A DNA stretch of 35,073 nucleotides from NCBI GenBank assembly GCA_005883405.1, contig VBGG01000050.1:2529-37601 (forward strand), written 5' to 3'. The notes beneath the pieces are model-generated. The model had not been told where the DNA came from and did not search any database. It worked only from the letters and a program-made list of their open reading frames with translations. This document shows positions 3,998-34,657 of the stretch, one piece after another; positions within the stretch are counted from its first letter, which is position 1; the number at the start of each line of letters is the position of its first letter. The translations under genes and the position numbers were made by a program. Source of the stretch: Chloroflexota bacterium. Its GTDB lineage: Bacteria; Chloroflexota; UBA6077; CF-72.

Positions 3998-5734
3998 GTG
4001 AAGACGACGCAAGGCGATGGATGGCGGGCGGCCCGCCGCGACGAGGTCGAGCTGTACGTGCGGACGTACAGCACGGTACTTCGCACCTCCGGCGAGGTCC
4101 ACTTGCGCGCATTCGAGCCAGCGCATCGCAACGTGGATCCCAGCCTCCACCCGGGCGCGAGCAGCACCGACGTCGACGCTGGCGCGCTGATCTACGCGGT
4201 CAACCGGCTGCCAGCGGTCATCAGCGCGGTCGAGCGGGTACTTCTCGGTCAACTGCCAGAGGACTTCGCCCAGGCTCTCGGCGCCAGCATCCAGGATTGG
4301 CAGCCGGTGCAGGCGCCCGCGCGACGCCGTCAGTGGCACTACGACGGCGCGCGCACGCTGGCGGTGCATGTGGCCAGCGCGTCCGACATCGACGATGTCA
4401 TTCCGACGCTCGTCGCGTTTCAGATCGAATGGAACAAGCTGCACGCGCGGCTTGCGGCCGAGCAGGCCGTCCAGGCGCTCGTGGAACGCAGCCCCATCCT
4501 CGACGAGGTGTCGCTCGAACAGGTAGGCGCAGGTCTGGGGATCGCACCCGACGACTGGCAGCGGCTGCAGGCTGGCCTCGCCACAGAATTCTGGCCGACA
4601 CTCCGCAGGATCGCCGCTTCCGAAAAGCAAATCGCCGTGCGCCTGCTGGGCGGTAGCCACATCGGCTACGCCAAGCTGACCAATCGCTGGTGGCAGCCCA
4701 TCGGGGCGGCGCTGACCGAGGGCGGGCTGCGCGGTCGACCCGTGTACTTCGTGTCCTCGAACCTCCACAGCCTGGTCAACATGCTGTCGGGCTACGCGCC
4801 GCGCCGCGCCAAGATGCTGTGGGCCTTTCTCGAGGAGTGCGGCCGTGCCGACCGGTCGAGCGAAGCGGCCCAGCTCGCCGAATTGCGCGGTCGGGCCAAC
4901 ACCGAAAACGTGCTGTACTACGCGGCGCGCTTGTGGCACCAGGCCCGGGGGACCGCGGCCGCGCGGCAAGAGCGCGCGGAAGAGGAGCGAGCGCGTGGCA
5001 TCACGACGATCGCACCGGTCGCCGGTGCCGACGTCGGCGCCCAGATCATCGACCTGGCCAGGGTGCGAGTCGCGGACGTGGACCCGCGCCTGCGTGATCT
5101 GGCGGTGGCTGGCCCCACGTCAGACGCCGTGATTCTCAACATCGACTATCCGCTGGGGATGGCGGGCTACCACATTCTGCGCCAGGTCGCCGAGGCAGTG
5201 GACAACCTGGCCGGCGTGTACGTGCTGGGCAAGGCCGCCACGCTGAACGGCGACATCGGCGACGTACTGATCGCGGACTCCGTTTACGACGAGCACACCC
5301 ACAATACCTACAGCTTCGACAACGCCTTCAGCTACGCGGATGTCGCACCCTTTCTCGAGCGCGGCTCGGTTCTGGACAATCAGCGGGCGGTGACCGTCAA
5401 GGGCACGTTCCTGCAGAACCGCGACTACCTGGACCTCTTCTATCGCGAGATGTACACGATCGTGGAGATGGAGGCAGGCCCGTACCTGGCGGCGTTGTAC
5501 GAGGCGAGCCACGTCAGCCGACATCCGCTCGGCGAGGCGGTCCACTTCCGCCAGCTGCCGCTGGACGTCGGCTTCATCCACTACGCCTCGGATACCCCGT
5601 ACACGCGCGCGCGCACCCTCGGCAGCCGCAGCCTGTCGTTCGAGGGTGTCGATTCGACCTATGCGTCGGCGGTGGCCATCCTGCGCCGCATCCTGTGCGC
5701 GCGGGCGGACGGTCCGAACGGCGAAGTCCACTGA
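3998..5734 (+). CDS. Uncharacterised conserved protein (~578 aa) with nucleoside-phosphorylase-like C-terminal motifs (tentative)
   Basis: Long ORF; GTG at 3998 is a more plausible start than 3893 because the earlier part overlaps the PIN/AraC remnant. C-terminal AVILNIDYPLGMAGYHILRQVAE, GVYVLGKAATLNGDIGDVLIADSVYDEHT and IVEMEAGPYLAALYE resemble the phosphorylase superfamily. Confidence 0.7.
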   Translation: MKTTQGDGWRAARRDEVELYVRTYSTVLRTSGEVHLRAFEPAHRNVDPSLHPGASSTDVDAGALIYAVNRLPAVISAVERVLLGQLPEDFAQALGASIQDWQPVQAPARRRQWHYDGARTLAVHVASASDIDDVIPTLVAFQIEWNKLHARLAAEQAVQALVERSPILDEVSLEQVGAGLGIAPDDWQRLQAGLATEFWPTLRRIAASEKQIAVRLLGGSHIGYAKLTNRWWQPIGAALTEGGLRGRPVYFVSSNLHSLVNMLSGYAPRRAKMLWAFLEECGRADRSSEAAQLAELRGRANTENVLYYAARLWHQARGTAAARQERAEEERARGITTIAPVAGADVGAQIIDLARVRVADVDPRLRDLAVAGPTSDAVILNIDYPLGMAGYHILRQVAEAVDNLAGVYVLGKAATLNGDIGDVLIADSVYDEHTHNTYSFDNAFSYADVAPFLERGSVLDNQRAVTVKGTFLQNRDYLDLFYREMYTIVEMEAGPYLAALYEASHVSRHPLGEAVHFRQLPLDVGFIHYASDTPYTRARTLGSRSLSFEGVDSTYASAVAILRRILCARADGPNGEVH

Positions 5735-5763: not shown

Positions 5764-6267
5764 GTGACGGACGTCGGCGTCGACACGATCAAGGTTTACA
5801 GCACACCCACTTGACCCTGGTGTCACCGAGCGATGGAGTTCCTTCGCAAGCAGGGTGTCGCCTACCAGGAAGTGGATGTAACCAAAAACCCGCTGGCCGC
5901 ACAGGAGATGGTGCGCCGCACCGGGCAGATGGGGGTGCCCGTGATCACCGACAGCCAGGAGGCGATCGTCGGGTTCGACCTGCCCCGTTTACAGCGCATG
6001 GCGGCGCGGCACAGCCGGCCCGGGCTCGGCTTGCGGGTTAAAGACGCCGAGGACGGCCCGGGAGCATACGTCGGTTCGGTTCGACCGGATTCCCCCGCCG
6101 CGCGGGCCGGTATTGAAGTTGGCGACGTGGTCGACGAGCTTTCTGGAGCGCCAGTCCGCAACGCGGCTGACCTGGAGCAGATCGCCGCTGCGCGGCACCC
6201 GGGCCAACCCACGAGCATTACCCTCCGCCGCGGCACCGAGCGGCGAACACTCATCCTGCCAGGCTAG
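5764..6267 (+). CDS. Glutaredoxin-like domain fused to a PDZ domain; candidate selenoprotein with in-frame TGA (5812-5814) at the first catalytic Cys position (U-P-W-C)
   Basis: Reading GTG 5764 through the TGA: VTDVGVDTIKVYSTPT-[TGA]-PWCHRAMEFLRKQGVAYQEVDVTKNPLAAQEMVRRTGQMGVPVITDSQEAIVGFD (Grx fold with GVPVI cis-Pro motif), then a PDZ-like GLGLRV...GAYVGSVRPDSPAARAGIEVGDVVDELSGAPVRNAADL. The listed ORF (5833-6267) begins only after the TGA. Confidence 0.75.
5830..5847 (+). promoter_or_regulatory. Putative bacterial SECIS-like hairpin downstream of the in-frame UGA
   Basis: GCGATGG (5830-5836) AGTT (5837-5840) CCTTCGC (5841-5847): 6 Watson-Crick pairs with one U-U mismatch. Tetraloop AGUU has G in its first two positions. 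Loop starts 22 nt after the UGA. An outer ACCCTG (from 5814) / CAGGGT (from ~5851) pairing is also possible. Confidence 0.45.
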
Positions 6268-6344
6268 TCGCCCGCCTGTTTCGCTCGGGCTCGCCGCTTG
6301 ACAGGCTGGCGGGCTCGGCTGCAACCGGGCGAGCCGCACTTCCC

Positions 6345-6620
6345 GGGCGGAATGACAATCCAATAGATGTTTCTGGCTCTCGCCAGGGTAGCCACCGCCG
6401 CCGAACGGCCGAGACGCAACGCCTGTTGTCCCGCGCGGGCGGAATGTCAATTCAAAGGATGTTTCTGGCTCTCGCCAGGGTAGCCACCGCCGCCGAGCGG
6501 CCGAGACGCAACGCCTGTTGTCCCCGCGCGGGCGGAATGTCAATTCAAAGGATGTTTCTGGCTCTCGCCCGGGAAGTCACCCGCCGCCGAACGGCCGAGC
6601 GGCAAATCCTGCCAGGGGTA
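6345..6620. repeat. Three tandem direct repeats, unit ~92-93 bp
   Basis: Units start with GGGCGGAATG(A/T)CAAT(C/T)CAA at 6345, 6437 and 6530 and share GATGTTTCTGGCTCTCGCCAGGGTAGCCACCGCCGCCGA(A/G)CGGCCGAGACGCAACGCCTGTTGTCCC; the third unit is more diverged. Confidence 0.93.
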
Positions 6621-26004: not shown

Positions 26005-26963
26005 TTGAGCAGATCGATCCTCGTCACCGGCGGCGCGGGTTTCATAGCCAGCCACGTCGTGCAGGCGCTGCTCGAGCGGGGCGACGCCGTCGTCGCGCTC
26101 GATAGCCTGAACACGTACTACGACCCGCCTCGCAAGCGGGCCAACCTCGCCGAAGTTCAGAGCGAAGCCTCGGATGCGTCGCAGCTGACGTTTGTCGAGG
26201 GCGACATTCGCGACCGAGACCTGGTTGGGCGCCTGTTCGCGGACCACGCGTTCGACGCCGTGGTGCACCTGGCAGCCATGGCCGGCGTTCGGGCTTCCAT
26301 AGAAGATCCGGCGCTGTACTTCGACGTGAATCTCGCCGGGACGCTGGCTCGGAGAAACCCATCTTCATCCTGGCCAGCACCTCGTCGGTGTATGGGAGCA
26401 CCACGCAGATCCCGTTTGTCGAAACCGACCCATGCGATCGGCCGCTCGCACCCTACGCCGCCAGCAAGCGGGCGGCGGAGCTGCTTGGCTTCACCTACCA
26501 CCACCTGTACGGCCTCGACGTGACGGTACCCCGCTTCTTTACCGTCTATGGTCCCCGCGGCCGACCCGACATGATGGCGTACAAGGTGGCCGACAGCATC
26601 TTCCTCGGGCGGAATGTGCCACTGTTCAACAACGGGCAGATGTACCGCGATTGGACGTACGTGGGCGACATCGTGGCGGGCCTCGTGGCGGCCACCGAGC
26701 GTCGGCTTGGCTACGAGATCGTCAATCTGGGGCGCGGTGAGCCTGTGCTGCTGTCTGACTTCGTCCGATCGATCGAGGAGGTCATCGGGCGCAAGGCCAA
26801 CCTGACGCCCGCGCCGCCGCCCGACACGGACATCCTCTCGACGCACGCCGACACGACCAGGGCCGGCAGACTGCTTGGCTACCGCCCGACGGTCTCAGTG
26901 CAGACCGGCGTGGAGCGGTTCCTGGCCTGGTACGAGCGCGCCGTCAGAAACCAGCCGGCCTAA
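26005..26963 (+). pseudogene. NAD-dependent epimerase (UDP-glucuronate 4-epimerase/GalE-like), disrupted by a short deletion/frameshift at ~26347-26352
   Basis: N-terminal half in one frame (ILVTGGAGFIASHVVQALLERGD...VHLAAMAGVRASIEDPALYFDVNLAGTL); the rest in another (EKPIFILASTSSVYGSTTQIPFVETDPCDRPLAPYAASKRAAELLGFTYHHLYGLDVTVPRFFTVYGPRGRPDMM...). The usual ~10-13 residues between NxxGT and the SSVYG strand are missing. Confidence 0.85.
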
Positions 26964-33885: not shown

Positions 33886-34657
33886 ATGGCTGAGCTGCTG
33901 GTCGCGCGCGGCATCAGCAAGCGCTTCGGCGGCCTGGTTGCGGTCAACGGGGTCGACTTCACCATCGACGAGCGCGCCATCGTCAGCCTGATCGGGCCCA
34001 ACGGCGCCGGCAAGACCACCTTCTTCAACCACCTTTCGGGGCGCCAACATCACCGCGCGCAAGCCGCACACCATCACCCAGCTGGGCATCGCTCGCACCT
34101 TCCAGAACATCCGCCTGTTCGGCACGATGAGCGCGCTCGACAATGTACTGGTCGGCATGCACTCGCGGCTGAAGTCGAACGCGCTCGACGCGGTGTTGCG
34201 TACCCCGCGCTTCAACCATGAGGAAGCCAGCGCGCGGGACAAGGGGCTGGATCTCTTGCGCTTCGTCGGGTTGGCCGGCAAGCACGAGGAGTGGGCGCGC
34301 AACCTGGCGTACGGCGACCAGCGCCGCCTGGAGGTGGCACGGGCGCTCGGGGCGGATCCACAGCTGCTGCTGCTCGACGAGCCGACCGCCGGCATGAACG
34401 CGCAGGAGACGGCGGCGCTGACGCGCCTGATCAGTCGCTTGCGGACCGAGCGCGGGCTGACGATTCTGCTCATCGAACACGACATGAAGGTGGTCATGGG
34501 CATCTCAGACAGGGTGACGGTGCTCGACTACGGTCAGAAGATCGCCGAAGGCACGCCGACCGAGGTGCAACGCAATCCGCGTGTGATCGAGGCTTACCTC
34601 GGCCGCGCCGCGACCGCCGAAGCAAGCGCGGCGCCTTCTGGAACGACCCCGCCGTGA
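33886..34657 (+). pseudogene. livG: Branched-chain amino acid-type ABC transporter ATPase (LivG-like), disrupted by deletion/frameshift at ~34039-34043
   Basis: [52 protein letters not shown] in one frame; [43 protein letters not shown]...LLLLDEPTAGMNAQE in another. The usual post-Walker-A segment (~12-16 residues) is missing. Confidence 0.87.

Follow-up and report, generated by a model that had tools for sequence, protein, structure and literature searches.

Selenocysteine-containing glutaredoxins with a UxxC active site are already known, as are the UXX-star families, the HUGP/GUXX-star fusion and a Trx7/PDZ family with a CxxU motif, according to the accessible parts of two publications (PMC9312934, PMC13188914). 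The bacterial representative from Clostridium sp. OhILAs / C. oremlandii (PF00462) has the glutaredoxin (Grx) fold and selenocysteine (Sec) at the N-terminal redox position, as is predicted for the protein discussed here; unlike our protein, it is described without mention of a PDZ domain in those parts of the same papers (PMC13188914, PMC9312934). The C. oremlandii enzyme binds glutathione, and GSH-bound structures are among the references of the review as far as its accessible text goes. A second relative, NF041199 (Trx7/PDZ), came out of the Global Ocean Sampling survey; it likewise couples a thioredoxin-superfamily redox domain to PDZ in a selenoprotein, but combines Thioredoxin_7 with CxxU where our protein combines glutaredoxin with UxxC. 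On the PDZ side, the HtrA/DegP/DegQ proteases are closest by both sequence and fold, although their protease domain is absent from our protein. The 2022 and 2026 selenoproteome tables, in the portions available, list no glutaredoxin-PDZ selenoprotein, and PDZ occurs once in each text (PMC9312934, PMC13188914). These two papers were the only relevant ones in a literature search on glutaredoxin, PDZ and selenoprotein; Haft & Tolstoy 2025 lay outside its coverage. Among NCBIfam models, none for a Grx-PDZ protein came up for ours. The Grx-PDZ selenoprotein apparently represents a new domain architecture, and its family, which is widespread in the Chloroflexota, appears to be undescribed.

The gene lies in a 35,073-nucleotide stretch of a Chloroflexota metagenome-assembled genome (G000:C279:2529-37601), here called the window; the assembly comprises 6.17 Mb in 682 contigs and is 89.75% complete. 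With TGA translated as Sec, the plus-strand frame 5764-6267 encodes 167 residues, reads ...IKVYSTPT-U-PWCHRAMEF... and stops at TAG 6265-6267. Its sole internal stop, TGA 5812-5814, falls where the glutaredoxin motif CPWC begins, on the N-terminal redox cysteine. The first-pass annotation had placed the TGA at exactly this residue with the resolving cysteine retained; the DNA reads as it was quoted, and the codon is shared by 31 of 40 homologues, far more than chance would give. The GTG start is inferred from the frame and the homologues, and no clear Shine-Dalgarno sequence precedes it in the window. The ORF that ordinary gene calling finds with translation table 11 opens with ATG 5833, leaving out the active site. 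On the comparative evidence set out below, UGA 5812-5814 is very probably decoded as Sec, making the Grx-PDZ gene a selenoprotein gene. Coordinates are collected in Table 1.

Table 1. Features of the Grx-PDZ locus and of a second UGA-containing gene in the same genome (window coordinates unless a contig is given).
Feature	Position	Strand	Remarks
Predicted Grx-PDZ selenoprotein, complete CDS	5764..6267	+	167 residues, Sec17, GTG start, TAG stop; homologues align over full length
Glutaredoxin domain, residues 9-78	5788..5997	+	PF00462 1.2e-18; TIGR02196 84.8 bits vs cut-off 88.55; AlphaFold2
Predicted Sec codon (in-frame TGA), N-terminal redox residue of UPWC	5812..5814	+	TGA in 31/40 Chloroflexota homologues, Cys in 9/40
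TGT, resolving Cys of UxxC	5821..5823	+	Cys invariant in 30/30 members of the first alignment
SECIS-like hairpin GCGAUGG-AGUU-CCUUCGC	5830..5847	+	7-bp stem, U-U mismatch 5834/5843, apical AGUU 5837-5840
Truncated ORF from ordinary gene calling, 144 aa	5833..6267	+	ATG replaces the usual Lys AAG
HtrA/DegQ-type PDZ domain, residues 86-163	6019..6252	+	PF13180 2.3e-13; Foldseek
Formate-dehydrogenase-like molybdopterin oxidoreductase	L130 (G000:C610:1-8000); PF00384 at C610:3288-4904		In-frame TGA at canonical Sec position, ORF intact

The fusion of a glutaredoxin to a C-terminal PDZ domain, proposed in the first-pass annotation, is borne out by Pfam: residues 9-61 match Glutaredoxin (1.2e-18; 67.5 bits against a gathering cut-off of 22.9) and residues 86-163 match PDZ_2 (2.3e-13). 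The sequence contains both UPWC and the cis-Pro loop characteristic of glutaredoxins, with VPV invariant in the homologue alignment. An AlphaFold2 model computed with C in place of U shows two clear domains at a mean pLDDT of 91.9, and the glutaredoxin domain in this model follows the order beta-alpha-beta-alpha-beta-beta-alpha. Foldseek returned HtrA/DegQ-family structures as best matches through the PDZ domain, isolated HtrA PDZ domains among them. Profile comparison placed 7c10 and 7c12 first among solved relatives of the glutaredoxin part. Since just eight residues precede the first strand at the N-terminus, the product is probably cytosolic.

Among profile models, the Uxx-star model NF041212 and the YruB-family model TIGR02196 (GlrX_YruB) come closest to the Grx domain; they have 70 and 74 positions and describe this domain only, with no PDZ. 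The first-pass annotation had named Uxx-star as an NCBIfam family; it is one, and the window protein falls under its cut-off (61.1 vs 66 bits), as it does for TIGR02196 (84.8 vs 88.55 bits). All 29 scanned members of the family match both models at E<=0.001, and some relatives exceed the cut-offs: L027 (69.6) and L028 (69.1) for NF041212, and L028 (91.3) for TIGR02196. The Trx7/PDZ model NF041199 matched the window protein at 30.4 bits against a cut-off of 300, through the PDZ part alone.

Among 151 related genomes searched, 30 Grx-PDZ homologues could be aligned, 26 with TGA at exactly this codon and 4 with Cys there; a further locus (L048), whose in-frame match is limited to the Grx part, was excluded from this alignment. 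A profile search of 399 Chloroflexota genomes then provided 40 strong matches in 39 genomes, of which 31 have TGA, 8 have no stop and one is a Cys form with TAG in the linker. Carriers of TGA include the single-contig genomes G055, G063, G094, G122, G192, G248 and G262. When the redox residue was masked for tree building, the nine Cys forms came out scattered and a minimum of 8 changes between Sec and Cys was required; a genome with the Sec form and a genome with the Cys form occur together in family f12, and likewise in f54. The one match considered from outside the Chloroflexota, L003, is weak and restricted to Grx.

These data bear directly on an alternative in which a nonsense mutation or a base-call error turned TGC or TGT of an ordinary Cys glutaredoxin into TGA, leaving a pseudogene or an assembly error. 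A single substitution is enough for this, and other reading frames of the window look frameshifted, for example the epimerase at 26005-26963. However, the identical TGA stands at the same codon in 31 homologues, several of them in single-contig genomes, and a base-call error is therefore implausible. The gene also shows no sign of the decay that the first-pass annotation had named as a counterindication: over the whole ORF, dN/dS between the window copy and its two same-genus homologues is 0.16 and 0.21, and 0.10 between these two, values that are approximate given near-saturated synonymous sites and that cover the whole frame, the ten codons before the UGA being too few alone. The hairpin described below, which is tied to TGA, argues in the same direction. 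For the family as a whole the error reading is refuted, and the conserved TGA cannot stem from damage to a Cys codon or from its misreading; for the window copy we consider it highly improbable.

Translation could also begin at ATG 5833, giving a PDZ protein with a truncated, inactive Grx behind a noncoding upstream frame. This ATG is in frame and is what a standard ORF call selects. Against it, the YxTxTUPxC segment upstream of the ATG is conserved in all homologues, with Y, T and T invariant or nearly so, and most homologues have no ATG at this position but Lys, encoded by AAG or AAA. The window copy has Met where its homologues keep this conserved Lys after the motif. The N-terminal conservation contradicts a start at 5833, which on these alignments would seem scarcely credible.

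In the wide search, the TAG homologue of G287 was considered as a possible case of UAG-encoded Sec and rejected: its TAG follows a Cys-type Grx, within the linker, and splits the paralogue into two ORFs. Most other in-frame stops inspected were the normal ends of Grx-only genes that had been read through. The G287 locus itself (L094, G287:C3:253500-257500) is a Cys-type Grx-PDZ paralogue whose linker TAG separates a Grx ORF from a PDZ ORF; inspected by eye, its neighbours include sulfide:quinone oxidoreductase-, rhodanese-, TusA- and DsrE-like genes, a hint of sulfur or persulfide chemistry. A different variant, L103 (G025:C126:21620-21841, minus strand), is a Grx-only gene that lacks the PDZ domain and has TGA at the redox Cys followed by a near-perfect SECIS-like hairpin; its genome also carries the Grx-PDZ form.

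The published bacterial SECIS model, in the accessible text, comprises an apical loop of 3-9 nt, an upper stem of 4-16 bp and a spacing of 16-37 nt, with a G within the first two loop positions (PMC13188914). The stem in this family, perfect or near-perfect and 7-8 bp long, begins 15 nt beyond the UGA (window 5830) and carries an apical AGUU or GUU loop whose G lies 23 nt after the UGA, in agreement with these constraints as given there (PMC13188914). Two stem registers occur, because the codons for Phe-Leu-Arg (UUC CUU CGC) and Phe-Leu-Ser (UUU CUU UCG C) need different pairings; each has a full stem, and the second contains three compensatory pairs (C-G/U-A, A-U/G-C and A-U/G-C/C-G). When all TGA members were analyzed together, RNAalifold reported almost no conserved structure, probably a consequence of the two registers, and splitting by register resolved the hairpin.

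Because the stem overlaps the conserved residues AKEFL, synonymous-codon randomisation was used as the null model. Paired positions exceeded it at p<0.05 in 28 of 31 TGA members and in none of the nine Cys members, and folding energy was significant in 23/26 and 0/4, respectively. A downstream hairpin conserved among homologues, which the first-pass annotation had asked about, is hence found, and it is restricted to the TGA members. The window copy has 6 of 7 positions paired (p=0.02 for paired positions, 0.050 for energy). Its U-U mismatch stems from an AUG codon where most members have AAG or AAA; this one change from Lys accounts both for the mismatch and for the ATG that gene calling uses as a start. 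Folded as a longer stretch, 5812-5859 adopts a different minimum-energy structure (z -1.11). For the family the predicted hairpin is convincing; for the window copy it is moderate, and there it is the weakest piece of evidence.

Of the selenium machinery that the first-pass annotation expected in the host, selA and selB are present, while tRNA-Sec and selD are missing from the assembly though found in both same-genus genomes. The genes selA (545.9 bits) and selB (332.8 bits) form an operon on the minus strand of contig C615, adjacent and with open frames; SelB covers model positions 2-579 of 581, and SelA runs off the contig end. As selA scores over the cut-off in 124 of 151 related genomes, its presence alone is weak evidence and a tally of Sec form against selA is uninformative. 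Among TGA carriers of the first set 25 of 26 have selA, which agrees with Sec use and falls short of proof; the remaining one, G017, has tRNA-Sec and selD without a selA match.

No tRNA-Sec over the gathering score and no selD over the cut-off were found in the 682 contigs of the 89.75% complete genome. Both same-genus genomes (G001, G002) have a tRNA-Sec with TCA anticodon and a selD that itself contains TGA. Sequence next to tRNA-Sec in G001 corresponds to bases 10-204 of contig C106, right at its start, which would put the tRNA about 145 bases off the contig end. On C7, the alignment with the gene that lies downstream of selD in G001 begins at base 5, with selD beyond that contig end. The upstream neighbour of selD is on C11 with no selD beside it, so a contig break alone is insufficient on that side. 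Because the flanks of both genes lie at contig ends, assembly fragmentation is the best explanation for the gap; a true absence of tRNA-Sec and selD from this genome is possible. G002 carries two slightly different tRNA-Sec genes (L082 on C41, L083 on C171), each less than about 200 bases from a contig end, which suggests that this locus assembles badly. In the window's genome, bases 1075-1137 of L050 (contig C21) show 95-97% identity to the genus tRNA-Sec over its 3' part, spanning the anticodon, variable and T arms with a CC insert in the anticodon loop, whereas the 5' half and the acceptor differ. ARAGORN called no tRNA in this stretch, perhaps a decayed copy or the trace of an integrated element. 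Searched against Rfam, neither the window nor the sel contig nor C21 gave a match at gathering level.

A second, textbook selenoprotein gene in this genome encodes a formate dehydrogenase (C610) with the segment NQARI-U-HSSSVPGLG, in which the TGA occupies the site of Sec in formate dehydrogenase. In Dehalogenimonas, FdnG contains Sec (PMC13390414).

The missing genes also count in favour of a reading in which the family is Sec-decoded and the copy of this strain has recently degraded and is no longer decoded. The U-U mismatch with its Lys-to-Met change and the disrupted tRNA-Sec 3' part on C21 fit it as well. However, selA and selB are present and open, the formate dehydrogenase ORF is intact with its canonical Sec, the G001 flanks of selC and selD fall at contig ends here, the gene is under purifying selection, and the window hairpin stands above codon-shuffle expectation. 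We regard a degraded copy as very unlikely, if slightly less so than a sequencing or nonsense error. Variant tRNAs that read UGA are known in bacteria, and a tRNA for UGA was not found in this assembly; both points fit a reading in which Cys or Trp is inserted, through an unusual tRNA or a change of code. Yet TGA 5732-5734 is the ordinary stop of the adjoining DUF6909 gene, the same-genus genomes have the canonical tRNA-Sec, and the hairpin predicts SelB dependence, which together make such decoding extremely improbable.

Selenocysteine remains the favoured reading. The first-pass annotation's proposal of a real Sec protein missed by standard annotation gains strong support from the homologue TGA, the TGA-linked hairpin, selA-selB and low dN/dS. 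In the mechanism we propose, SelB and Sec-tRNA would decode the UGA with the short downstream hairpin as guide, to yield an oxidoreductase of glutaredoxin fold whose active site is U-P-W-C and which bears an HtrA-type PDZ domain at its C-terminus. Its selenol could attack client proteins at disulfides or oxidised sulfur, release of the product could fall to the resolving Cys, and the PDZ domain might recruit clients or partners via their C-termini. Sequence comparison best supports the Sec decoding, the presence of the hairpin, the fusion of the two domains and purifying selection across the UGA, while for the functional picture taken jointly we see the chances as about even. Gene neighbourhood is not conserved and offers no functional clue: the window copy adjoins DUF6909, the copies in G001 and G002 have genes for an HlyD-type protein and an aminotransferase nearby, and other homologues have a radical SAM protein, a TIM-barrel protein or a transporter.

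Two further features of the window were recorded. Just downstream of the Grx-PDZ gene, 6344-6617 holds three tandem copies of a GC-rich repeat spaced 92-93 nt apart, with ungapped identities of 94% and 62%. The genes for an NAD-dependent epimerase (26005-26963) and an ABC ATPase (33886-34657) show an apparent frame switch in mid-gene, which appears to resemble single-base assembly indels or recent frameshifts.

The family illustrates how gene calling drops an active site and turns a Sec-Grx-PDZ protein into a truncated PDZ protein. In its Sec or Cys form Grx-PDZ occurs in 39 of the 399 Chloroflexota genomes sampled, about one in ten, and adds to the known selenoproteome. The repeated exchange of Sec and Cys, with gain or loss of the SECIS, is a natural case in which the cost and benefit of Sec can be weighed inside individual families. 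Through its PDZ fusion the protein may aim a selenol at specific partners, and it is perhaps an even call that this phylum-wide family, with its PDZ domain delivering the selenol centre to chosen clients, would represent targeted selenium-based protein reduction in the Chloroflexota.
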